DNA of 64,000 nt, taken from the NCBI GenBank assembly GCA_963205185.1, contig CAUJHZ010000061.1, forward strand, positions 62,001-126,000, read 5' to 3'. The notes beneath the pieces are model-generated. The model searched no databases. It was not told where the DNA came from and worked only from the letters and a program-made list of their open reading frames with translations. Numbering within the stretch: the first letter of the stretch is position 1; every line of letters starts with the position of its first letter. Shown here in pieces: positions 1-62,852 of this stretch. This stretch comes from Planctomycetota bacterium (lineage in GTDB: Bacteria > Planctomycetota > Phycisphaerae > Phycisphaerales > UBA5793). Position numbers and translations under genes: made by a program.

Positions 1-348
1 GAGTACGCGGATCGTGACGTTGGTCAGCGGGCTGAAGCGCGACGGCTCGGTCTCGACGACGAGGCGCCAGCGCGCCTGCTGCATCTGGGCATCGAGATCG
101 GCCGCGCTCTGGTCGCTGAACAGTTCCACTTCGACGAGCGAGTCGTTAAGTTGTTCGGCGGTGGTGAGGCCCGCCTCGAGCGCCGCCATCTTCGACACCG
201 CCAGGTCGGTGGCGATCTGCCGATCGCGCGAGCGGGCCAACGACGCCGTCATGCTCGTAGTCGAGACGAGGATGATCGAACCCGCCGTCACGAACAGCGA
301 CAGCGCGATGAGAATCTCAAGCAGCAGCGCGCCGCGGCGGGCGATCAT
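1..348 (-). CDS. Type II secretion-type pseudopilin (GspI/GspJ-like), 3' end outside window
   Basis: The reading frame starts at ATG 348 and stays open to the window edge, giving 116 codons without a stop. The protein begins MIARRGALLLEILIALSLF, a short basic leader followed by a hydrophobic helix with Glu five residues into it, which is the class III prepilin pattern. It would be cleaved and N-methylated by a prepilin peptidase and form part of the periplasmic pseudopilus. The start overlaps the stop of the upstream gspH-like gene (ATGA), so the two are translationally coupled. The order F-G-H-this fits GspI, but GspJ or a generic type IV pilin-like protein cannot be excluded because the C-terminal half is missing. 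Confidence 0.75.
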   Translation of the reverse strand, partial: MIARRGALLLEILIALSLFVTAGSIILVSTTSMTASLARSRDRQIATDLAVSKMAALEAGLTTAEQLNDSLVEVELFSDQSAADLDAQMQQARWRLVVETEPSRFSPLTNVTIRVL

Positions 349-1151
349 GGCTCACTCTCCGTTGAGCCTTGCTCGTCAGGTTCAAGCACGCCGCCCGCAT
401 CCGGAGGCGCGACCTCGACCGCACTCCGCGTCACCTGCCCCGTCCAGGGATTGATCTCGATGCGCGATTGTCGTCCGCCCGCATCCACAATCGTGAAGGA
501 CGCATCACCGAAGGTCGATCCGTCGGGCATGTAGACAAGAAGGGAGACGGGCTGCGCGTCCTCGAGCGAGAAATGGTCCTGCTCGCCGGCCGGAGCAGAC
601 GGGCGGCCTGAAAGAGCATCCTCAGTTGCTTCCTCTTCCGCCGCCGCACCGGTCTGGATTCGAAACCCCTCAGGCAGAACAAGGCGCAGGCGCGAGCCGC
701 CCAGCGCCAGTGTCTTTGGATCATCGCCCGCGGCCGCGCCGAGCCGGGCCGATGGTGTGAGTTGATCCGTTGACTCCTGCGGCGATGCGGCGCTTTCGGT
801 GGAATCACTGTGCAAACCGCTCGCGTCATCGTCCGGCACGACGCTGGTGTCAAGCCATGCGGCATAGAGGGCGCGCTCGCCCGGCTCCCAGAGCAGCTGC
901 ACCGGTCGCCGCTGCCGCTGCGCCTCGGCGCGCGCCAGCGCGAGCGTGGCGATGACCTGGTCTGCCGTGGCGTCGAAGCGCGTGCTCTCGAAGCGCCGCG
1001 TCATCGCGGGGATGGCGACCGCCGCGGCCGCGACGAGCAGCACCAGCACGATGAGAATCTCAATGAGCGTCAGACCGGCGCGGCAAGGAGACGCCGACGA
1101 ACACCGGCGAAGCGATCGCGGCCGCGCGGCACGGTGCCGCGGGCGGACCAT
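345..1151 (-). CDS. GspH-like pseudopilin
   Basis: 268 aa. After an unusually long basic leader of about 25 residues comes the prepilin motif G-LTLIEILIVL and a hydrophobic helix (roughly residues 26-48). The mature part contains the helix 'FDATADQVIATLALARAEAQRQRRPVQ' style pattern seen in GspH/FimT pseudopilins, then a low-complexity Ser/Glu/Ala stretch (about residues 105-135) and a beta-rich C-terminus ending in a Glu-rich tail. Position after gspG and before a gspI/J-like gene supports the minor pseudopilin role at the pseudopilus tip. No clear Shine-Dalgarno precedes ATG 1151, so the true start could be a little further downstream; the long leader suggests this too. Confidence 0.75.
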   Translation of the reverse strand: MVRPRHRAARPRSLRRCSSASPCRAGLTLIEILIVLVLLVAAAAVAIPAMTRRFESTRFDATADQVIATLALARAEAQRQRRPVQLLWEPGERALYAAWLDTSVVPDDDASGLHSDSTESAASPQESTDQLTPSARLGAAAGDDPKTLALGGSRLRLVLPEGFRIQTGAAAEEEATEDALSGRPSAPAGEQDHFSLEDAQPVSLLVYMPDGSTFGDASFTIVDAGGRQSRIEINPWTGQVTRSAVEVAPPDAGGVLEPDEQGSTESEP

Positions 1152-1199
1152 CTCAGCCGCAGCGTCGATGCTCGCGGACAGGCTGCACCTCCCACTCGG

Positions 1200-1724
1200 T
1201 CAGATTCCGCTGTCGCCCGAATCAGTCTCTTCGTCGGTTGACTCGTCGAGTTTGATGTCGTCGGCCGTGCCCTCTTCGCCGTCCTTGCCGTTGGACCAGA
1301 GTTCGTACTTGCGGCCGTCGGCTTCTTCGCCGGTCGCGCCCGCCTCGTCGTCGATGGGCCGGTAGCCGTACTCGTTGCCCCAGCGGTCCTTGAGGTTCTT
1401 CTTGCCCTGGGCGAAGTAGTTGCCCATGTGCTTGCTCTGCTCGTTCTCATCCTCGAGTTTGGTCTTGTCCCAGAGCGCGGCGATGCCTTCATCCTCGGTG
1501 GGGTAGCGACCCATGTCGAGATAGAACTGCTCGAGTGCCGACTCGATCATGCGCAACTGGACGCGCTCGGTGTCTTCGAGCGCCTGGTCGCGGCGGGGCA
1601 TGAGATTGACGGCCACGATGGCGCCGATGGCCAGGACGATCACCAGCACGATGAGCACTTCAATGAGCGTGAAGCCCGCGGCAGCGCGTCGGCGCATCGC
1701 GCGGGGCGAGAATCGGTGAGCCAT
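1200..1724 (-). CDS. gspG: Major pseudopilin GspG
   Basis: 174 aa from ATG 1724. AAGGAG touches an upstream ATG at 1730 but is six bases from ATG 1724, so the latter is the better start (MAHRFSPRAMRRR). The prepilin motif AAG-FTLIEVLIVLVIVLA follows, then the GspG signature region: a long helix (ERVQLRMIESALEQFYLDMGRYPTEDEG), KDRWGNEYGYR and the calcium-loop segment YELWSNGKDGEEGTADDIK, which carries the acidic ligands typical of GspG. The product polymerises into the type II secretion pseudopilus. The C-terminus has an acidic DESTDEETDSGDS tail that is longer than usual. The downstream gspH-like gene starts 49 bases later. Confidence 0.92.
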   Translation of the reverse strand: MAHRFSPRAMRRRAAAGFTLIEVLIVLVIVLAIGAIVAVNLMPRRDQALEDTERVQLRMIESALEQFYLDMGRYPTEDEGIAALWDKTKLEDENEQSKHMGNYFAQGKKNLKDRWGNEYGYRPIDDEAGATGEEADGRKYELWSNGKDGEEGTADDIKLDESTDEETDSGDSGI

Positions 1725-1836
1725 GTTCATCTCCTTGCACTCGGCGTCAGATGGGCCGCAACGGCGGTCGCGTCGATTATACCGACCGAACCCCGTTCGG
1801 ATTTCACCTGCTGCCCGCCCCCGGGGCCAATGGCCC

Positions 1837-3030
1837 TCACCCGCCGGCCTGCGCACTGAGCAGCACCAGCGGCACCACCAGCGCCAGGATGATGAACAGC
1901 AGCGTGGCGCCAAGCAAAAGCAGCAGAAGCGGCTCGAGCAGCCGCACCGCCGTACTCAGCAGGCGATCGACGCGCGACTCGATCGTTTCGGCAATCGACA
2001 CCAGCACTTCTTCCAGGTTATTGGCCGACTCGCCAATTCGAATGACTTCAATGACATCCTCTTCAAACAGCCCGCTCGACGCCAGCGGCTCGGCCAGCGT
2101 CTCGCCTGATTGCACGGACTTGGTCGCCTTCTCGATGGCCTCGATCATCACGGCGTTGCCGGTCGCTTCCTTACTGATGTTCATGGCCTGGAGCATCGGG
2201 ATGCCGTTGGCCAGCAGCGTGCCCAGGATGCGGCAGAAGCGCGCCACTGCCGTGCTCGACACGAGCGGCCCGATGATCCACACGTGCAGCACGTGGCGCG
2301 ACACCCACTGCCGCACTTCCGTCTGCTGCCGGGCCCACCAGGCAAAAGCGACCAGCGCGGCCATCGCGACGAGCACGAGCCAGCCGTGCTGCGTGAGAAG
2401 ATCGCTGGCGCCCATGACGATGCGCGTGGGCAGAGGCAGCGTGCCGATGCCTTCGAGCATCGAGCGAAACTTGGGAACAAAAATGATCATGACCGACACG
2501 ACCACGATCGTGCCCACCACCACGAGCACGATCGGATAGATCATCGAACTGAGAATCGTCGAGCGCAGCTCCGCCTGGCGGTGCAGGAACATGGCCAGGC
2601 GCTTGAGGACTTCTTCGAGAAAGCCGCCGCGCTCGCCGGCGCGCACCATCGCGATGTGAATTGTCGGAAAGGTGCGCGGGTGTTTGGCCATCGACTCAGC
2701 CAGTCCTTCGCCATCCGATACGTCTTCCGCGATGCGGCCGATGACCGCGCCGAGTTTGGGATTGCTCTTGCTGCGGCTGAGCAGTTGCAGCGCGCGCAGA
2801 ATCGGCACGCCGCTGTGAAGCAGTTCGCCCAGTTGCCGGTAGAACGTGGACATCGCCCGCGTCGAGACGCGCACGCCTCGCTCCGAAACACCCGTCTGCT
2901 CGCGCACCTGCACGGGAAAAAGCGACTTGGCTTCGAGGTCGGCCACCACGGCCTGCGTGCTGTGCCCGGCCGCCTGTCCGACCACGCGCTCGCCGGCAGT
3001 GTTCTTGGCGATGTACTCGAAGACGGGCAT
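1837..3030 (-). CDS. gspF: Type II secretion inner-membrane platform protein GspF
   Basis: 397 aa, the usual size for GspF/PilC. The start MPVFEYIAKNTAGE at ATG 3030 is the conserved family N-terminus; a longer frame to 3174 exists but is not family-like. Two GspF domains are visible (about residues 60-185 and 265-385), each with the pattern FYRQLGELLHSGVPILRAL / FCRILGTLLANGIPMLQAM, and three hydrophobic segments (about 165-195, 215-240 and 370-395). It is the polytopic protein that links the secretion ATPase to pseudopilus assembly. It heads this operon here: no gspE is adjacent, the next gene upstream being divergent. No strong ribosome-binding site is seen. Confidence 0.92.
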   Translation of the reverse strand: MPVFEYIAKNTAGERVVGQAAGHSTQAVVADLEAKSLFPVQVREQTGVSERGVRVSTRAMSTFYRQLGELLHSGVPILRALQLLSRSKSNPKLGAVIGRIAEDVSDGEGLAESMAKHPRTFPTIHIAMVRAGERGGFLEEVLKRLAMFLHRQAELRSTILSSMIYPIVLVVVGTIVVVSVMIIFVPKFRSMLEGIGTLPLPTRIVMGASDLLTQHGWLVLVAMAALVAFAWWARQQTEVRQWVSRHVLHVWIIGPLVSSTAVARFCRILGTLLANGIPMLQAMNISKEATGNAVMIEAIEKATKSVQSGETLAEPLASSGLFEEDVIEVIRIGESANNLEEVLVSIAETIESRVDRLLSTAVRLLEPLLLLLLGATLLFIILALVVPLVLLSAQAGG

Positions 3031-3076
3031 GGGAAAGCGTAGGAAGGGGCGGGGAGGAGTCGAGGCATCGAGGCTC

Positions 3077-3116
3077 GGTGCCGTGGTCAAGCGAGGCTCT
3101 GGGAGCGCAGGCCACG
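3077..3116 (+). repeat. Dispersed hairpin repeat, copy 1 (subtype B, core only)
   Basis: A 40-bp core beginning GGTGCCGTGGTC and ending GGCCACG, in the divergent intergenic region between gspF and the QueD-like gene. The outer arms CGTGGTC/GGCCACG pair through seven positions (one G-T), and inside them GCTC-TGG-GAGC forms a second stem. The same core recurs at 62711 (subtype B), and with a one-base-longer variant at 54449 and three times from 59625 (subtype A). The tail that follows the core in the other copies (CGAATC at a fixed distance) is not recognisable here. Confidence 0.8.
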
Positions 3117-3198
3117 CGGGCCCGCCAGCTTCTGCGTGGCGAGGAAACTCCCCGCTGGACTGCGCCACCTGCATTTCGCCGCGACTCTATGATTGGCA

Positions 3199-53520: not shown

Positions 53521-54174
53521 ATGAAACGGCGCCATTTGATCAACCTCACAAGCCTGGCCGTACTCGCGTGCGGCGCAGCGGGAGCCAACGCCCAGATCGT
53601 GGGTAGCGCTCACGACTTCAGCAATGCGGGCTGGGCCGACAACCAGATTTGCAAACCCTGCCATACCCCCCACAACGCCATGACCGTTGACATCAACGGC
53701 TACGGCACCGATCGGCTCTGGAACCACGCGCTGCCGGCACAGAGCCAGGTCTACAACACCAATGAAGGCGATCTCACTCGTGACGACGCTCTCGACGCCA
53801 AGAGCATCCTTTGCATGGGCTGCCATGACGGCACCGTCGCGCTCGACTCCTTCGGCGGAGTGAACGGCGGCACCTACATCTTCGGCAGCGCGCTCATCGG
53901 CACCAACTTGACCAATGACCACCCGGTCGGCGGCGCCGCGGTCTGGAATCCCACCTATGAAGGCAGCCGGTACAATCCGCGCCTGAACTGGGAAAACCAG
54001 ACATTCGGGGACGACCGCATGGGCCGCCTCCAGGACATGCTCGTCGACGGCAACGTTGAGTCGGTCATCAGCTGCGTCACCTGCCACGAGCCTCACCGCC
54101 GGGGCGGCAATGACTTCCTGATGCGCATCGACAACACCGGCAGCCAGATGTGCCTGGCCTGCCACATCAAGTAA
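53521..54174 (+). CDS. Tetrahaem c-type cytochrome, possible OmcE-like nanowire subunit
   Basis: 217 aa. A signal peptide ends at ANA (residue 24). Four CxxCH sites are at 44-48, 98-102, 185-189 and 211-215. Five further histidines (31, 51, 69, 134, 192) in HDFS, TPHNA, WNHA, DHPVG and PHRRG could be distal ligands, enough for bis-His coordination of all haems. Size and haem number resemble the OmcE family that forms extracellular filaments. A hairpin 38 bases downstream (54212-54254) could make its transcript more abundant than the rest. It is the first gene of the cluster, with AAGGAG seven bases upstream. The nanowire idea is an inference from architecture. Confidence 0.88.
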   Translation: MKRRHLINLTSLAVLACGAAGANAQIVGSAHDFSNAGWADNQICKPCHTPHNAMTVDINGYGTDRLWNHALPAQSQVYNTNEGDLTRDDALDAKSILCMGCHDGTVALDSFGGVNGGTYIFGSALIGTNLTNDHPVGGAAVWNPTYEGSRYNPRLNWENQTFGDDRMGRLQDMLVDGNVESVISCVTCHEPHRRGGNDFLMRIDNTGSQMCLACHIK

Positions 54175-54211
54175 GATCGGTTCCGACGATCTGGTTCTTG
54201 ATCACTTCACC

Positions 54212-54254
54212 TTCCCCCTCCCGGGCGTTGATCGGCGCGGCCCGAGAGGGGGAA
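54212..54254 (+). terminator. Hairpin between tetrahaem cytochrome and propeller genes
   Basis: TTCCCCCTC/GAGGGGGAA (9 bp), one mismatch, then CGGGC/GCCCG (5 bp) and a 13-base loop. There is no T-run. It may act as a partial terminator or as 3'-end protection of the first gene's message. Confidence 0.55.
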
Positions 54255-54362
54255 CGGCTTGACGGACTCGATGATGGAATTGGAGCCGCCCGCCCGCACC
54301 CGTCCTCGTCCAATCGAGCCTCCCCGAAAACGCGCCGCTTCGAGACACGAAAAGGCATGGCC

Positions 54363-55721
54363 ATGACCTCTCGCATGCACATCCCCTCTCCTCGCCGCAT
54401 CGGCTCAGCCGCACTGCACGTGCTTGAAACCTGCATGAAGACCGCAGGGGTGCCGTGGTCGAAGCGACGCTTTGGGAGCGCCGGCCACGTGGTCGCGCGG
54501 ACCGCTCACGAATCGCTTTGCACATCGAGCGCGCTCGCCCTCGCTCTGCTGGCTCCGCTGCACGGCTGCTCGTCGAGTCCAAAGATGGCCGAGACGCCGA
54601 CCACCGTCGCCTCGCAGTACGCCTTTTGGCCGCCCTATCCCGATGAGCCGCGCCTTCAGTACCTCGTCTCGTTCCAGCACAGCGGCCAGGTTGCGCAGCG
54701 CAAGTCCAGCGCGCTCGAGGACATCATCTACGGCAAAGAGTCCAACGTGGACGCCGCGGTGAACAAGCCCTACGGCGTGGAGATGTGGAACGGCCGCATC
54801 TACACCTGCGATATTCGAGGCGGCGCCGTCATGGTTTTCGATCTGCGCAAGAAGCAGACGCGCATCATGGGAACCACGGGCCGGGAGATCCTCGTCCGCC
54901 CCACCGACATCGCCATCTCCGACGACGGCACGAAGTACGTCGCCGACCTCGGCCGCAATCTCGTCTTCGTCTTCGACGCCGACGAGCGCTTCGTCCGGAC
55001 CATCGGCATGAAGGACCTGCAGCCGGCGGGCCTGGCCGTCTTCGGCGATCGCCTCTTTGTCAGCAACTTTGTCGGCCAGTGCGTCGAGATCTTCGACCGC
55101 CGCACCGGCGATCACCTCGGCTCGTTCGGCGAGCCCGGAGACGACGACGGCCAGTTCGTCCGCCCGCTGGGCATCGAGGTCGATGCCGAGGGCAACGTCT
55201 ACGTCACCGACGTCATCCGATGCCGCCTGCAGAAGTTCAGCCCCGAAGGCGAGTTCCTTCTGGGCTTTGGCGTCATCACCAACAACATCGGCTCGTTCGT
55301 GCGGCCCAAGCACATCGCCGTGGACAAAGAGGGCATGATCTACGTCGTAGACGCTTCGTTCCAGAATGTGCAGCTCTTCAACCCCGAGGGCTACATCCTG
55401 ACTTTCTTCGGCGCGGCCGGGTCGCACCCGGGCGCGATGTTCCTCCCCGCCGGAATCACGATTCACTACGGCGACATGGATCTCTTCAAGCCCTACATCC
55501 ATCCCGACTTCGAAGCGCAGTACCTCGTGCTCGTCACCAATCAGTTCGGCGACGACAAGGTCTCTGTCTACGCTTTCGGGCAACTCAGACCGGGCGTGAC
55601 TGTTGAGGCAATCCGGGCCAGTCAGGCCGATATCAACCTGGGAGTCGAGGATGCCGACAAGGCCGAAGGCGACAAACCCGAAGTCACTCCTGACGAGCTG
55701 CCTCCAGATCTGAAACCGTGA
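54363..55721 (+). CDS. NHL beta-propeller lipoprotein 1 with repeat-derived leader
   Basis: 452 aa from ATG 54363 (AAAAGG seven bases upstream; ATG 54357 is too close). The first 52 residues include the hairpin repeat read in frame (VPWSKRRFGSAGH, about 30-42), and only then comes the lipoprotein signal SALALALLAPLHGC with lipid-anchor Cys69. The mature protein begins with the motif FWPPYPDEPRLQYLVSF and contains six NHL-type blades (KPYGVEMWNGRIYTCD, PAGLAVFGDRLFVSN, RPLGIEVDAEGNVYVTD, RPKHIAVDKEGMIYVVD and others). Propellers of this kind accompany porin-cytochrome complexes. It is a paralogue of the protein at 58433. Confidence 0.85.
   Translation: MTSRMHIPSPRRIGSAALHVLETCMKTAGVPWSKRRFGSAGHVVARTAHESLCTSSALALALLAPLHGCSSSPKMAETPTTVASQYAFWPPYPDEPRLQYLVSFQHSGQVAQRKSSALEDIIYGKESNVDAAVNKPYGVEMWNGRIYTCDIRGGAVMVFDLRKKQTRIMGTTGREILVRPTDIAISDDGTKYVADLGRNLVFVFDADERFVRTIGMKDLQPAGLAVFGDRLFVSNFVGQCVEIFDRRTGDHLGSFGEPGDDDGQFVRPLGIEVDAEGNVYVTDVIRCRLQKFSPEGEFLLGFGVITNNIGSFVRPKHIAVDKEGMIYVVDASFQNVQLFNPEGYILTFFGAAGSHPGAMFLPAGITIHYGDMDLFKPYIHPDFEAQYLVLVTNQFGDDKVSVYAFGQLRPGVTVEAIRASQADINLGVEDADKAEGDKPEVTPDELPPDLKP
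54449..54520 (+). repeat. Dispersed hairpin repeat, copy 2 (subtype A, full 72-bp unit, inside a gene)
   Basis: Core GGTGCCGTGGTC...GGCCACG at 54449-54489, then a 17-base variable stretch and CACGAATC, the same spacing as in the tandem copies at 59625. The unit is read in frame within the propeller lipoprotein leader. Outer arms CGTGGTC/GGCCACG and inner arms CGCT/AGCG can pair. Confidence 0.85.
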
Positions 55722-55735
55722 GGGAAGCGTGATCG

Positions 55736-56392
55736 ATGGCGAATCGATCGACCGGTCATGGATACCGCGCAGCCGGCTGGACCCTCGCGCTGGCCGTCCT
55801 CGCCCTGTGGAGTTGCGGCACGCCCGAGGAGCGCTACCGCACGCTGAGCATCTTCTTTGACGATGTCCCGCTGCCCGAGTCAATGCGCCCGACCGCGCTC
55901 GAGGCCGACGGCAGCCGCGTCGCCATCTCCGTGGTCACTCACGCCCCGTTTGCCAACGAGCAGTGCAGCGACTGCCACGGTGAAGTCGGCAAGTTCACCA
56001 TGTCGCTCGAAGGCTACTCCGGCGTGACCTCCAACGTCTGCCTCAAGTGCCACGAGGGCAAGCCCACCGAGCATCCGATCATGCACGGCCCCGTCGCGGC
56101 CGGCGAGTGTCTCGCGTGTCATGAAGCCCACGAATCGCGCTACGCGCATCTGCTCAAGCGCGCCAGCCCGACGCTGTGCCTCGAGTGCCACATCGGAGCG
56201 GAGGTCCAGGCCAGCGGCGCGCCCGAGCACGCCGATCTCACCGTGGATTGCCTCACCTGCCACTCGGGCCACGGCAGCGCATTGCCCTACTTCCTGCATG
56301 CGCCGATCGCGCCCGAGGCGCCCCCGGAGGATCAGCCGGCCGAGCAAGAAGCGCCCGCCGCCGCCGCGGATGAACCCGAGGCCGGCTCATGA
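55736..56392 (+). CDS. Pentahaem c-type cytochrome lipoprotein
   Basis: 218 aa. Lipoprotein signal LALAVLALWSC (lipid-anchor Cys27). Five CxxCH sites lie at 77-81, 102-106, 125-129, 148-152 and 172-176. Several PxH/ExH histidines nearby (THAP, EHPIMHGP, CHEAHESRYAH) could be distal ligands. The segment RTLSIFFDDVP before the first haem resembles a motif seen in porin-associated cytochromes of metal reducers. The C-terminus is an acidic Pro/Ala-rich tail. The stop overlaps the start of the beta-barrel gene (ATGA), so one-to-one synthesis with the barrel is likely; it would be the periplasmic electron-carrier side of a conduit. Confidence 0.9.
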   Translation: MANRSTGHGYRAAGWTLALAVLALWSCGTPEERYRTLSIFFDDVPLPESMRPTALEADGSRVAISVVTHAPFANEQCSDCHGEVGKFTMSLEGYSGVTSNVCLKCHEGKPTEHPIMHGPVAAGECLACHEAHESRYAHLLKRASPTLCLECHIGAEVQASGAPEHADLTVDCLTCHSGHGSALPYFLHAPIAPEAPPEDQPAEQEAPAAAADEPEAGS

Positions 56393-58425
56393 AGTCGCGC
56401 GGCGTCCAGCATCGCGCCGGCGCCGCGGCCACCGCCGCAGCGGCCGCCTTTGGCGTCGCCGCCGCCGCACTCGCGCAAGACCCCGCCCCGCCCGAGGAAG
56501 GCGGACCCATCGTCGTCGGCGAACGCAACGAGCAGTTAGAGTCCTTCGTCATTCAGCGCTTCCGCACGGCGCTCGAGTTCCTGTACCGTTACCGAACCGA
56601 TGAGCGCAAGCGCCCCGGCGAGCCGACCACCCGCGAGACCGAAGAGGTCATCCGCCCGAGCGTTCAGTTCTCGGCCGACGCCTACATCGTCCATCCCAAC
56701 TTCATTCAACTCTCGTTCATCGGCGGCCTGCAACTCGACCACACGACCCTCGACAGCCCCGCTCTCAATCTCAGCGAAGACACGACCACTCTCGACACCA
56801 ACTACGACTTTCGCGCTTTCATCCTCGGCCAGTCGTCGATGCCCGTCACGCTCTACTCCCGCCGCACGCAAACGAACATCGACCGCCTCTTCGGGCCTTC
56901 GCTCGACTCCACGCTGACCGAGCACGGCGGCATCGTGCAGTTCGTCAACGACCGCGCCCCGACCACGATCCAGTTCTTCCATCGCGATCAGGAGCAGACC
57001 GATGCAGGCGGACAGACCGATCTCGGAGTCGTGCAGGACACCTTCGACCTGCACAGCAACATCCGCGTCGCCGACCGGCAGACGCTGAGCCTCGACTACA
57101 CGCTCGATTCGATCCAGCAGTCCGGCGCCGGCCGGCAGGCTCAGGATTTCATCCGCCACGACGCCACCGCCCTGCACGTGCTCGACTTTGGCGACCGCGA
57201 CAGCCTGCGATCGCAACTCCGCTGGTTCGATCAGAGCGGCGACTCGCAACTCAGCCGCATCAGCCTCGACGAATCGCTGAGGCTCTATCACAGCGACACG
57301 CTCCAGACCCGCTACGACCTCTTCTACGAGAACCAGTCTCGCGCCGACTCCAACCAGGACTTCCTGCGCGGCAACTTCAATGTCCGCCACCGCCTCTACG
57401 GCAGTCTCGTCACCAGCGCCAACATCGGCGCCTCCACCCTCAACACCGACGGATTCACCAGCGACGAGTACTACGGCGACGTGACCTTCGACTACACCAA
57501 GAAAGTACCCTACGGGATCTTCACGGCCTCGGCGAGCGTCAGCGAGAATGTCCGCGCCAACGGGCCGCGCGGCACGCCGCTGCGCATCTTCGACGAGTCG
57601 CGCACCTTTAACGACCCCGCCCCCATCACCATCGCCAGGCAGAACATCCTGCCCGACTCGATCGTCATCACCGACATCAGCGGCCTCACCTTCTACGACG
57701 AAGGTCTCGATTACACCCTCAGCGTGTTCTTCGACCGCGTCGAGATCAGGCGCGTGATCGGCGGCGGCATCGTCGATGGCCAGACCGTGCTCATCGACTA
57801 CACCATCGGCCCTGAGCCGGCCAACACCGTCACCACCACCGGCCTGGGCTTCAGCGCCCGATACAGCATCAACGACGGATTGCTCAACGGCCTGGGCCTG
57901 TACATGCGCTACCTGCAGCGCGACGCGAGCATCGACAGCCCCCGGCCCAGCGAGTTCATCCTCGATGACTCGCGCGACCTCATTCTCGGCGCCGACTACT
58001 TCACCGGACCGCTTTCGCTCAATGCCGAATACGAAACCTATGACAGCGTCATCTCCCCGTTCGACGCCACGCGCTTCGAAGCCCGCTACGTGCACACGCT
58101 GGGCCGATTTTCTTCGCTGAGCCTCCTGGGCAGCTACCAGATGATCGATTACCCATCGCTCGACAACCACGTCGATCTCGCCACGGTTACGGCGTCATGG
58201 AACCAGCAGTTGACCAACCAGTTGCGCCTCAACGCCCAGCTCGTGTGGCGCGATGAGCGCGACGATCTGCAGGGCCACACCCAGGGCTTCGAGCAGCGAA
58301 TAAACTTGAACTGGCGCTACCGCCAGACGGAGATCTATGTCTCGGGACGCAATTCGATCTTCGATTCCTCCGCGGAAGAACGGCTGGCGCAGAGCGTCGA
58401 GGTCGGCTTCCGCAGGACCTTCTGA
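56389..58425 (+). CDS. Outer-membrane beta-barrel protein of a putative porin-cytochrome conduit
   Basis: 678 aa. An Ala-rich signal peptide ends near ALAQDP. The rest consists of alternating hydrophobic/polar strands with short turns and Tyr/Phe/Arg-rich strand ends, and the last strand ends VEVGFRRTF with a C-terminal Phe, the usual barrel-assembly signal. About 24-28 strands can be imagined from the length. No CxxCH is present. Coupled by ATGA to the pentahaem lipoprotein, in the position of MtrB/OmbB/ExtB-type porins that sheath cytochromes across the outer membrane. It is not visibly similar to those in short motifs, so the function is inferred from context. Confidence 0.82.
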   Translation: MKSRGVQHRAGAAATAAAAAFGVAAAALAQDPAPPEEGGPIVVGERNEQLESFVIQRFRTALEFLYRYRTDERKRPGEPTTRETEEVIRPSVQFSADAYIVHPNFIQLSFIGGLQLDHTTLDSPALNLSEDTTTLDTNYDFRAFILGQSSMPVTLYSRRTQTNIDRLFGPSLDSTLTEHGGIVQFVNDRAPTTIQFFHRDQEQTDAGGQTDLGVVQDTFDLHSNIRVADRQTLSLDYTLDSIQQSGAGRQAQDFIRHDATALHVLDFGDRDSLRSQLRWFDQSGDSQLSRISLDESLRLYHSDTLQTRYDLFYENQSRADSNQDFLRGNFNVRHRLYGSLVTSANIGASTLNTDGFTSDEYYGDVTFDYTKKVPYGIFTASASVSENVRANGPRGTPLRIFDESRTFNDPAPITIARQNILPDSIVITDISGLTFYDEGLDYTLSVFFDRVEIRRVIGGGIVDGQTVLIDYTIGPEPANTVTTTGLGFSARYSINDGLLNGLGLYMRYLQRDASIDSPRPSEFILDDSRDLILGADYFTGPLSLNAEYETYDSVISPFDATRFEARYVHTLGRFSSLSLLGSYQMIDYPSLDNHVDLATVTASWNQQLTNQLRLNAQLVWRDERDDLQGHTQGFEQRINLNWRYRQTEIYVSGRNSIFDSSAEERLAQSVEVGFRRTF

Positions 58426-58432
58426 GGGCCAC

Positions 58433-59581
58433 ATGCCGGCAATCGCGCGCGGCTCCAACTCGATCGCCTGCAGCACCGCACGCTACTGCGGCGCGGCGAC
58501 TTTGCTCGTCGCGACGCTGCTGCTGGCGGCGGGTTGCGCCAAGCCCGCGGGCGAACTCTTCCCCCCGCTGGCGGTGCCGCTCAGTTGGCCCAATCCCCCC
58601 GATGAGCCGCGCATCCACTACGTGGGTCAGATTGCCACCACCGCTGATCTCAAGGCCGCCAAACCGTTCGGCGAAGCCCTGCGCGAACTCTTCGCAGGAA
58701 AGAAGCCGATTCTCGGCCTCGTCAGCCCCATGGCCGTTGAGTTCGATGACCAGCGGCGCCTGTACGTGGCGGACACGGCCGCGCGGGTCGTGCACGTCTT
58801 CGACCTCGACAAGCGCAAGTACGAGCAGTGGATGCCTCCCGCGCCCGACACCTTCATCACGCCCGTCGGCCTCGCCCGCGCCGGTGACGGCCGCCTGTTC
58901 GTGGCCGATTCATCCACAGGTGTGGTGTGGCTGTTCGACTCAACCGGCCGGAGCATCGGCATGTGGGGTCTGGGCCATCTCATCCGCCCCTGCGGCCTGT
59001 CGTTCGACGAGCAGGGCCAGCGCCTCTTCGTCGCCGACGCCGGCGCGCATCGCGTCGCCATCTTTGGCCCCGGCGGCGAACTGCTCGCCACGCTCGGCTC
59101 GCGCGGCACGGCGCCCGGCTCATTCAACTTCCCCACTGACGTAGTCATCGACCATCAGGGGCGGCTCTACGTCACCGACGCACTCAACTGCCGCATTCAG
59201 CAGTTCGGCCCCGATCTCGCGCCGCGACTGCAGATCGGCAGCCGGGGCGACCTGCCCGGCTACTTCTCGCGCCCAAAGGGCATCGCTGTGGACAGCACCG
59301 ACCACCTCTACGTCATCGATGCACAATTCGAAGCGGTGCAGGTCTATTCCAGCGCCGGCCAACTTCTCATGGCCTTCGGGCGCGAGGGGCGCGGGCCCGG
59401 CGAGTTCTGGCTGCCCGCGGGAATCTGCATCGACGAGAGCGACCGGCTGTGGATCGCCGACACGTACAATCGAAGGGTGCAGGTCTTCGACTACCGCCCG
59501 CCGGCTCAGAGCCAGACCGACGCGCCGGACACCGGCCCCAACGCCGGACCAGGCCCTGCGCCCAAGGGAGCGACGCCATGA
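58433..59581 (+). CDS. NHL beta-propeller lipoprotein 2
   Basis: 382 aa from ATG 58433, with GAGGG close upstream, 7 bases after the barrel stop. Lipoprotein signal ATLLVATLLLAAGC (Cys35 approximately). The mature N-terminus LSWPNPPDEPRIHYVGQI parallels WPPYPDEPRLQYLVSF of the protein at 54363, showing they are paralogues. Six NHL blades are visible (SPMAVEFDDQRRLYVADT, TPVGLARAGDGRLFVADS, PCGLSFDEQGQRLFVADA, FPTDVVIDHQGRLYVTDA, RPKGIAVDSTDHLYVIDA, LPAGICIDESDRLWIADT). It has no repeat insertion. The stop overlaps the start of the large cytochrome (ATGA). Confidence 0.9.
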   Translation: MPAIARGSNSIACSTARYCGAATLLVATLLLAAGCAKPAGELFPPLAVPLSWPNPPDEPRIHYVGQIATTADLKAAKPFGEALRELFAGKKPILGLVSPMAVEFDDQRRLYVADTAARVVHVFDLDKRKYEQWMPPAPDTFITPVGLARAGDGRLFVADSSTGVVWLFDSTGRSIGMWGLGHLIRPCGLSFDEQGQRLFVADAGAHRVAIFGPGGELLATLGSRGTAPGSFNFPTDVVIDHQGRLYVTDALNCRIQQFGPDLAPRLQIGSRGDLPGYFSRPKGIAVDSTDHLYVIDAQFEAVQVYSSAGQLLMAFGREGRGPGEFWLPAGICIDESDRLWIADTYNRRVQVFDYRPPAQSQTDAPDTGPNAGPGPAPKGATP

Positions 59582-61461
59582 AACGGCCCCCTGATTCTCT
59601 CAGAACCTGTCTGAAAATCGCAACGGTGCCGTGGTCCAAGCGACGCTTTGGGAGCGCCGGCCACGCGAGCGAAGTGCTGCCACACGAATCACGACGGGTG
59701 CCGTGGTCGAAGCGACGCTCTGGGAGCGCCGGCCACGCGAGCGAAGTGCTGCCACACGAATCACGGCGGGTGCCGTGGTCGAAGCGACGCTTTGGGAGCG
59801 CCGGCCACGCGAGCGCAGCGCAGACAGACGAATCACGACGGCCTCGCTTCATGCTCAATCTCATCGCGCTGGCCGGCGGTCTGATCGTGGCATCGGCTGC
59901 GGCGGCGCAGCAGCAGAGCGTCGTCGATTCCGTACATAACCTCTCCGCCAGCGGGCCGGGCGATGTTCGCGCCGCGGCCGAAGAGCAAGTGTGCATCTTC
60001 TGCCACACGCCGCATCACGCTTCGCCGGTCGTGCCGCTGTGGAACCGCTCGATGCCGCTTGATGCCTACACGCCCTACACGAGCCGCGCGCTCGACGCCG
60101 AGCCCGGCCAGCCGACGGGCGATTCGAAGATGTGCCTGTCATGTCACGACGGCACGATCGCGCTCGGAGCCGTGCTCTCGCGCCCCAGTCCGATTGTCAT
60201 GCGCAGCGGCATCACCGTCATGCCGCCGGGCGGCTCCAACCTGGGCACCGATCTTTCCGATGATCATCCCGTCTCGTTCCGCTACACCTCGGCCCTGGCG
60301 GCGCAGGACCAGCACCTGAAACTGCCGGCCAATCTGCCGCCGGAGGTGCGCCTCGACGCCAACCAGGAGATGCAGTGCACGACGTGCCACGATCCGCACA
60401 ACAATGCGCTGGGCGATTTCCTCGTCATGCACAACGAGGATTCCAACCTCTGCCGCGCCTGCCATCAGATCGACTCGACCGACATCCTCGGCCACAGCAA
60501 CTGCAGTTCCTGCCACACGCCCCACACCGCCGCCAGCGGGCCCTATCTCCTGCGCGGCACGAACATCACCGAATCGTGCATGGACTGCCACGACGGCACC
60601 ATCCCCAATGCGCCCAACATCAGCCCCGACCTGCACAAACTCAGCGTGCACGACACCAACCGCGACATCGATCCGAGCGAGCCGATTCCCTTTGACGTCA
60701 CCTGCACCGACTGCCACGAGCCGCACACGATGAAGCATGGCGGCGCGTCGGCCCCTCGGGCCCCGCTGAACTTCGGCGATGCAAGCGGCATCACGCTCAC
60801 CGGCGCCATCATCCCCGTCGCGCAGTTCGAGTACGAAGTCTGCTTCAAGTGCCACGCGGACCGCAGCGCGATGGCGCCGGTCGTGACGCGGCAAGTAACG
60901 ACGGACAACCTGCGTTACAAGTTCGACTTCACCGCCGTGTCCTATCACCCCGTCGCCGCACCCGGCCGCAACAACGACGTGCCGAGCCTGCGGCCCGAGT
61001 GGACCACGGCGAGCATGATCTACTGCTACGACTGCCACAACTCCGACGCCGGGACCCGCAGCGGCGGCGGCGGGCCCGACGGCGTGCACGGCTCAAGCCA
61101 CGCGCCGCTGCTCGCGCGCCCGTATTCGATGATCGACTACACGAGCGAGAGCGCGACGAGTTACGCGCTGTGCTACCACTGCCACGAACGCAACAGCATC
61201 CTCGGCGACGAGTCGTTCCCCACGCACCGAAAGCACATCGTCGATGAGCGCACCACCTGCTCCACCTGTCACGATGCGCACGGCATCTCCTCGCAGGGCA
61301 GCACGATGAACAACAGCAACCTGATCAACTTCGACCTGTCGATCGTCTTCCCCGACCCGTCCTCGGGCCGCCTCGAATTCATCGACCAGGGCCGCTTCGC
61401 CGGCCAGTGCTTCCTGAGTTGCCACGGCGAAAACCACTCGCCGCGCGCGTATGGGGACTGA
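59578..61461 (+). CDS. Large multihaem c-type cytochrome (11 CxxCH plus one CxxxCH) with triplicated repeat leader
   Basis: 627 aa from ATG 59578, which has GGGAG seven bases upstream and overlaps the propeller stop. Residues about 17-88 are encoded by three 72-bp repeat units. A good signal peptide (MLNLIALAGGLIVASAAAA) begins only at Met92, ATG 59851, which lacks a ribosome-binding site. Eleven CxxCH sites follow, and a last site CFLSCH has three spacer residues. The first four haems share with the tetrahaem cytochrome at 53521 the order CHTPH - LWN - CHDGT - DHPV - CHDPH - CRACH, so the N-terminal part is a homologous tetrahaem module. It is a candidate outer-surface electron donor. Confidence 0.9.
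   Translation: MKRPPDSLRTCLKIATVPWSKRRFGSAGHASEVLPHESRRVPWSKRRSGSAGHASEVLPHESRRVPWSKRRFGSAGHASAAQTDESRRPRFMLNLIALAGGLIVASAAAAQQQSVVDSVHNLSASGPGDVRAAAEEQVCIFCHTPHHASPVVPLWNRSMPLDAYTPYTSRALDAEPGQPTGDSKMCLSCHDGTIALGAVLSRPSPIVMRSGITVMPPGGSNLGTDLSDDHPVSFRYTSALAAQDQHLKLPANLPPEVRLDANQEMQCTTCHDPHNNALGDFLVMHNEDSNLCRACHQIDSTDILGHSNCSSCHTPHTAASGPYLLRGTNITESCMDCHDGTIPNAPNISPDLHKLSVHDTNRDIDPSEPIPFDVTCTDCHEPHTMKHGGASAPRAPLNFGDASGITLTGAIIPVAQFEYEVCFKCHADRSAMAPVVTRQVTTDNLRYKFDFTAVSYHPVAAPGRNNDVPSLRPEWTTASMIYCYDCHNSDAGTRSGGGGPDGVHGSSHAPLLARPYSMIDYTSESATSYALCYHCHERNSILGDESFPTHRKHIVDERTTCSTCHDAHGISSQGSTMNNSNLINFDLSIVFPDPSSGRLEFIDQGRFAGQCFLSCHGENHSPRAYGD
59625..59840 (+). repeat. Three tandem 72-bp hairpin repeat units (subtype A) inside the cytochrome gene
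   Basis: Cores at 59625-59665, 59697-59737 and 59769-59809, spaced exactly 72 bases, each followed by a tail ending CACGAATCACGACGG or a close variant. The unit length is 24 codons, so the reading frame is kept. About 24 bases before the first core (AACCTGTCTGAAAATCGC) resemble the bases before the single copy at 54449. Inner stem CGCT/AGCG and outer stem CGTGGTC/GGCCACG are possible in copies 1 and 3; copy 2 has CGCTCTGGGAGCG. Confidence 0.95.
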
Positions 61462-62688: not shown

Positions 62689-62710
62689 CGGGGTGGCGTG
62701 GCCAACCCGG

Positions 62711-62852
62711 GGTGCCGTGGTCAAGCGAGGCTCTGCGAGCGCAGGCCACGCGACGGCGCGCGTCGCGTGCGAATCACTTTGAACTCCCGCCGCGCATCTG
62801 CCTGGCCCGCCGGTCGGTCGCCGCGGCGACCCGACCTCTGGACCACGGCACC
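62711..62852 (+). repeat. Hairpin repeat copy (subtype B) facing an inverted head, MITE-like arrangement
   Basis: Left: core 62711-62750 followed, after the standard 17 bases, by TGCGAATCAC. Right: the 12-base head GGTGCCGTGGTC occurs inverted at 62852-62841, followed on its own strand by a hairpin GGTCGCC-GC-GGCGACC. The 142-bp block therefore has 12-bp perfect terminal inverted repeats. It starts 22 bases after the DUF3592-like stop. Confidence 0.75.

Follow-up and report, generated by a model that had tools for sequence, protein, structure and literature searches.

We analysed a 64,000-nucleotide stretch of DNA (the window) from a planctomycete of the order Phycisphaerales (assembly GCA_963205185.1, contig CAUJHZ010000061.1, positions 62,001 to 126,000), in which six open reading frames, all on the plus strand and here called g1 to g6, lie within positions 53521-61461. 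These six genes probably encode an outer-membrane porin-cytochrome conduit dedicated to a cytochrome filament of the OmcE type, a reading to which we give a probability of roughly two in three. The reading is supported by the OmcE-like character of g1 over its full length and of g6 at its N-terminus, by the MtrA-like g3 with its invariant cysteine and five distal histidines, and by the plug-less, MtrB-like barrel modelled for g4. Further support comes from the recurrent gene order, from quinone-type partners on the same contig, and from the flagging of the host genus for iron-reduction markers (PMC13055281). An initial annotation, made from the sequence alone, had described six consecutive plus-strand genes for two propeller lipoproteins, a barrel and cytochromes of four, five and about twelve haems, with which the frames, the haem motifs and the Pfam NHL matches all agree. 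Its central proposal, a conduit of the porin-cytochrome type with two propeller lipoproteins, was strengthened and tied to a filament-type cytochrome by the OmcE-like g1 and the MtrB-like pore.

OmcE is the tetrahaem nanowire subunit of Geobacter. The first gene, g1 (53521-54174), encodes a secreted tetrahaem cytochrome with a signal peptide and four CxxCH motifs, and a Shine-Dalgarno-like AAGGAG lies upstream of it; in phmmer its product matched OmcE (7tfs_A) with an E-value of 3.5e-13 over residues 9-217, that is, over the full length. Four histidines outside the CxxCH motifs (H31, H51, H134 and H192) are invariant in six relatives, and thus enough histidines are kept for bis-histidine ligation of four haems. 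With this full-length tetrahaem relationship and the four distal histidines, g1 is, by its sequence, a member of the OmcE family and a candidate nanowire subunit. The host genome has two more OmcE-like tetrahaem genes (L046:6188-6877 and L047:5873-6523), with 59-66% identity to g1. At the other end of the set, g6 (59578-61461, with an alternative start at 59851) encodes a 12-haem cytochrome with 11 CxxCH motifs and one CxxxCH, the N-terminal domain of which is OmcE-like: the profile comparison with OmcE (7tfs) gave an E-value of 3.9e-38 over the first 210 profile positions, after which eight further haem motifs follow. The cysteines and histidines of these motifs, together with many further histidines, are invariant among 21 g6 sequences from several phyla. 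Pfam paired-CXXCH matches were obtained for g1, g3 and g6, and no match to g6 was found in plasmids.

Between these two lie the genes of the putative conduit proper. The pentahaem lipoprotein cytochrome g3 (55736-56392) resembles part of MtrA (6r2q_A, phmmer E-value 1.3e-9; the molecule name printed for this chain looks like an oddity of deposition, the title of the entry being 'Structure of the Mtr complex'). In g3 the lipobox cysteine (Cys27), the five CxxCH motifs and the distal histidines H69, H117, H132, H165 and H179 are invariant in 19 sequences. The following gene, g4 (56389-58425), encodes an outer-membrane beta-barrel of 678 amino acids, assigned from an AlphaFold2 model and family alignments. 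No Pfam family matched g4 above the cut-off, and comparison of its sequence with solved structures gave nothing significant; only fold comparison helped. The model (mean predicted local distance difference test score, pLDDT, 87.5) has about 28 long strands, or possibly 26, as counted by DSSP on one model, and ends in a C-terminal phenylalanine. It lacks an N-terminal plug, and a small inserted beta-domain at residues 398-473 would, by strand parity, face outside. In the fold search with Foldseek, the top TM-scores among the matches listed were those to MtrB (6r2q_B, 0.45/0.46), and in VIA-align the same chain had the largest number of aligned residues (441, Z 16.7). As modelled, therefore, g4 is a large, plug-less, integral outer-membrane beta-barrel with a wide pore like that of MtrB. 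This confident model did not come out as an unrelated transporter without a pore for a cytochrome, an outcome that the initial annotation had named as a refutation.

The same set of genes was found well beyond the host. Gene orders were counted in 59 loci, each 10 kb or longer, from Planctomycetota, Desulfobacterota, Nitrospirota and Gemmatimonadota; the counts are lower bounds, since some loci are cut by contig ends, and the loci are not independent, as relatives share ancestry. All six genes occur in order in 31 of the 59, the five from the first NHL gene to the 12-haem gene in 38, and the barrel, second NHL and 12-haem genes in 53, while 48 loci have an OmcE-like tetrahaem gene at some position. 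As a yardstick, three OmcE-like genes per 4.55 Mb would place one in about 1% of random 18-kb stretches. Outside the host genus and its nearest relative, identities are 15-45% for the barrels and 41-57% for the 12-haem proteins; a gene set that is shared between phyla at such identities, and for the most part in one order, far exceeds what chance would give. Of 392 sampled Planctomycetota genomes, 20 (about 5%) carry the 12-haem gene; in a second class it was found in 36 genomes out of 258, and 31 of the 48 genomes of the Geobacter-type family have it in full or in part. Among the carriers are Nitrospiraceae SURF_66, a deltaproteobacterial metagenome-assembled genome (MAG) with two copies, a Gemmatimonadales MAG, Geobacteraceae and Geomonas diazotrophica. 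The module, which had been set in a planctomycete-like genome, is not peculiar to planctomycetes. In the g6 tree the Planctomycetota sequences do not form one clade and the Nitrospiraceae sequence is placed within the second class, a pattern suggestive of transfer between phyla. The module is often accompanied by a 13-haem cytochrome as an additional neighbour. Three loci (L236, L238 and L239) contain a second version of the module, in which the OmcE-like gene stands downstream and a cytochrome frame of about 1480 amino acids with 20 haem motifs comes after it.

Candidate partners on the inner side are encoded on the same contig at a distance of about 100 kb (locus L044, G000:C61:6319-18646) and comprise an 11-haem cytochrome of the NapC/NirT type, a 10-haem b561 protein, a five-haem protein with a b6-type C-terminus and three 13-haem cytochromes. 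This cluster is likely a quinone-linked respiratory module, and a path from quinone to the cell surface is plausible in the host genome. With such partners at that distance, the conduit is not the self-contained module for which it had been taken; in several relatives, NapC-like or 13-haem genes stand directly beside it. A MAG of g__UBA5793 (MAG17) from a deep saline spring was reported with oxidative phosphorylation and nitrate respiration, and 24 hits were scored in it as 'iron reduction' by FeGenie, most of them DFE_04xx (PMC13055281).

From these results, the following path may be drawn. In the outer membrane g4 would form a wide sleeve, which g3 would thread, carrying electrons through, and at one mouth of the sleeve g6 would extend the chain of haems. 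The OmcE-like domain of g6 may then connect the conduit to a filament that g1 is predicted to form, and the two NHL lipoproteins may serve as assembly, gating or docking factors. On the inner side, the NapC/NirT-type, b561, b6-type and 13-haem cytochromes could link the conduit to the quinone pool. The net flow of electrons would more likely be outward, to minerals or partner cells, with uptake possible. We also put forward, tentatively and as something less than an even chance, that g6 is a socket: by mimicking a filament subunit, its OmcE-like domain would let an OmcE-type nanowire plug into one particular outer-membrane conduit, and the operon would be a complete wire with its connector, spread across several phyla.

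Several observations weigh against a dedicated conduit. Large TonB-type receptors and LptD reach Z values similar to, or scores nearly equal to, those of MtrB in the comparisons of g4, and the profile comparison with MtrB suggested by the initial annotation gave no support: the MtrB/PioB family (PF11854) was matched in Pfam neither by g4 nor by anything in the host genome. A lipobox cysteine, as a redox lipoprotein of the outer surface would need, is invariant in g3, which may be anchored on either face of the membrane; there is no lipobox in g6 or g1, and the side of the membrane on which g6 stands is a matter that we infer. The structure model of g6 is unusable (pLDDT 39.7). In this strain, repeats break into the signal peptides of g2 and g6. 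In two relatives belonging to the order, a 10-haem gene replaces the 5-haem gene and no OmcE-like gene lies nearby. The insertion of g3 in g4 is likewise a proposal, made from the homology of g3 to MtrA and from the position of its gene beside that of the barrel.

The direction of flow is the first point on which another reading has to be weighed. The initial annotation spoke of electron export, but the direction cannot be read from sequence, and the same conduit may run inward, so that periplasmic cytochromes would receive electrons taken from Fe(II), from an electrode or from partner cells. Conduits of this type are able to run both ways, the Uet cluster, described from cathode-oxidising Tenderiales and iron-oxidising Gallionella, is discussed as an inward system (PMC10734462), and the locus of Geoalkalibacter ferrihydriticus with an OmcE-like protein, two NHL proteins and an MtoA-like cytochrome was proposed to oxidise iron (PMC12016550). 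We nevertheless regard inward flow as unlikely in the present host, as MAG17 of the same genus looks heterotrophic with nitrate respiration (PMC13055281).

Another possibility, which we consider unlikely, is that the barrel and the propellers form a port for secretion and assembly of the tetrahaem filament subunit, electron flow through the barrel being secondary or absent. The presence of an OmcE-like gene together with the barrel and propellers in most loci would fit such a port. So would three loci of the Geobacter-type family (L241, L242 and L244), in which a related NHL gene is followed by an apparently split 12-haem gene (4- plus 7-haem) without a barrel; in L241 these genes are immediately followed by genes for pili or type II secretion (T2SSF, T2SSE, PilM and secretin). 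However, in most loci the barrel gene is overlapped or directly adjoined by the gene for the MtrA-like lipoprotein cytochrome, as a conduit would predict, and g4 carries none of the additional domains that are typical of known secretion ports. A periplasmic respiratory enzyme to which these cytochromes belong, beside a barrel that is an unrelated transporter, is very improbable; each half of this reading had been named by the initial annotation as a refutation. The matches to NrfB/NapC-type models are weak, partial and below the cut-off, the locus lacks a catalytic subunit, and the barrel, which has no TonB plug, co-occurs with the same cytochromes across phyla.

The two propeller genes of the probable porin-cytochrome conduit flank the pentahaem and barrel genes. 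The first, g2 (NHLa, 54357-55721), encodes an NHL beta-propeller lipoprotein (Pfam NHL, 2.7e-15), and its place, after the OmcE-like gene and before the pentahaem gene, is conserved; the second, g5 (NHLb, 58433-59581), encodes another (Pfam NHL, 6.8e-30; lipobox LAAGC). In g2 the signal-peptide region contains one plus-strand copy of a 72-bp repeat (54449-54520), absent there in the sister species (L011), and in the 5' part of g6, again the signal-peptide region, three tandem in-frame copies are present on the plus strand (59625-59840), as against one copy in the sister species and none in L012-L014. The repeat is a dispersed structured element with a core of about 45 bp in the 72-bp unit, with an in-frame reading of VPWSKRRFGSAGHA. 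It also occurs at 62710-62781 and at about 15 other places in the genome, and most of the other copies looked at are not obviously in signal peptides. Comparison with the sister species suggests that the repeats in g2 and g6 were recently inserted, and that in g6 one copy was expanded to three. Because of these repeats at their 5' ends, the exact starts of both genes are uncertain, that of g2 having been placed by comparison with the sister species. Export of the two products may be altered, or translation may begin downstream (at 59851 for g6). Elsewhere in the window, at 345-3174, some frames resemble, by eye, a pseudopilin and a gene of a type II secretion or pilus system, and the repeat has a further copy at 3077-3121.

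The host shares its genus with the MAG UBA5793, has a genome of 4.55 Mb, and has four congeners in the genome collection. As to the gene junctions, three of which had been described as ATGA overlaps or nearly so, the overlap is genuine between g3 and g4 (56389-56392) and, provided that g6 starts at 59578, between g5 and g6, and the spacings of 14 bp (g2/g3) and 7 bp (g4/g5) are short, but the g1/g2 junction is loose (about 180-260 bp). The ccm operon noted directly opposite the module is real, with CcmE, CcmF, an ABC ATPase and CcmB on the other strand, but its adjacency is not general: ccmE and ccmF adjoin the module in G016 and the host genus, and in the other compared loci of the order they are not next to it.

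According to a review of 2025, the relation of porin-cytochrome complexes to filaments is unclear (PMC12307469). The joint between cytochrome nanowires and the outer membrane is an open question, for which the recurrent module offers a concrete and testable candidate: a gene for an OmcE-like wire recurs across phyla in company with genes for an MtrA-like cytochrome, for a barrel and for a 12-haem protein that carries an OmcE-like domain. The six-gene set looks like a widespread but little-described form of bacterial wiring, and our results extend wiring of this type to Planctomycetota.

Among known systems, the OmcE filament (PDB 7tfs) is like full-length g1 and the N-terminal domain of g6, and differs in lacking the eight extra haem motifs of g6; the formation of filaments by g1 is a prediction. 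The MtrCAB complex (PDB 6r2q) is matched by g3 in sequence and by g4 in fold, whereas the propellers and OmcE-like genes are additional here, the MtrB/PioB family is not matched and no relative of MtrC or OmcA was found above the cut-off among the six genes. The OetABI and D. ferrophilus DFE_0448-0465 clusters also combine multihaem cytochromes with beta-propeller proteins, but have larger cytochromes and an isomerase, and D. ferrophilus was reported to be without an apparent porin conduit (PMC5539420, PMC10553843, PMC8322314, PMC9769857). ExtEFG of Geobacter sulfurreducens, an outward system, is similar in composition, with a barrel, a pentahaem lipoprotein and a dodecahaem periplasmic cytochrome, but by its description it is without an OmcE-like gene or propellers and adjoins YedY and Hox hydrogenase genes (PMC6148476). 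Around the present module no such genes were recognised by eye, the flanking frames having been profile-searched in part.

Similar gene sets are already known in two cases. The locus Ga0056053_02426-02431 of Geoalkalibacter ferrihydriticus combines an OmcE homolog, two NHL proteins, an MtoA-like and another multihaem cytochrome, whereas its authors report no mtoB and propose an inward direction (PMC12016550). Its barrel may have been missed or may be absent; such barrels are easily missed, since g4 likewise matches no MtrB family. The closest named system, compared by composition and not by sequence, is Uet (undecahaem electron transfer) of Tenderiales and Gallionella (PMC10734462), which likewise has an 11/12-haem paired-CXXCH protein (UetJ), an extracellular tetrahaem cytochrome (UetA), a barrel (UetC) and two NHL proteins (UetHI). 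Absent from the six genes are the three trihaem proteins of Uet and its peptidyl-prolyl isomerase; in their stead there is here the pentahaem MtrA-like lipoprotein. What may be new is that the six-gene set recurs in several phyla, and that the 12-haem protein is headed by an OmcE-like domain.

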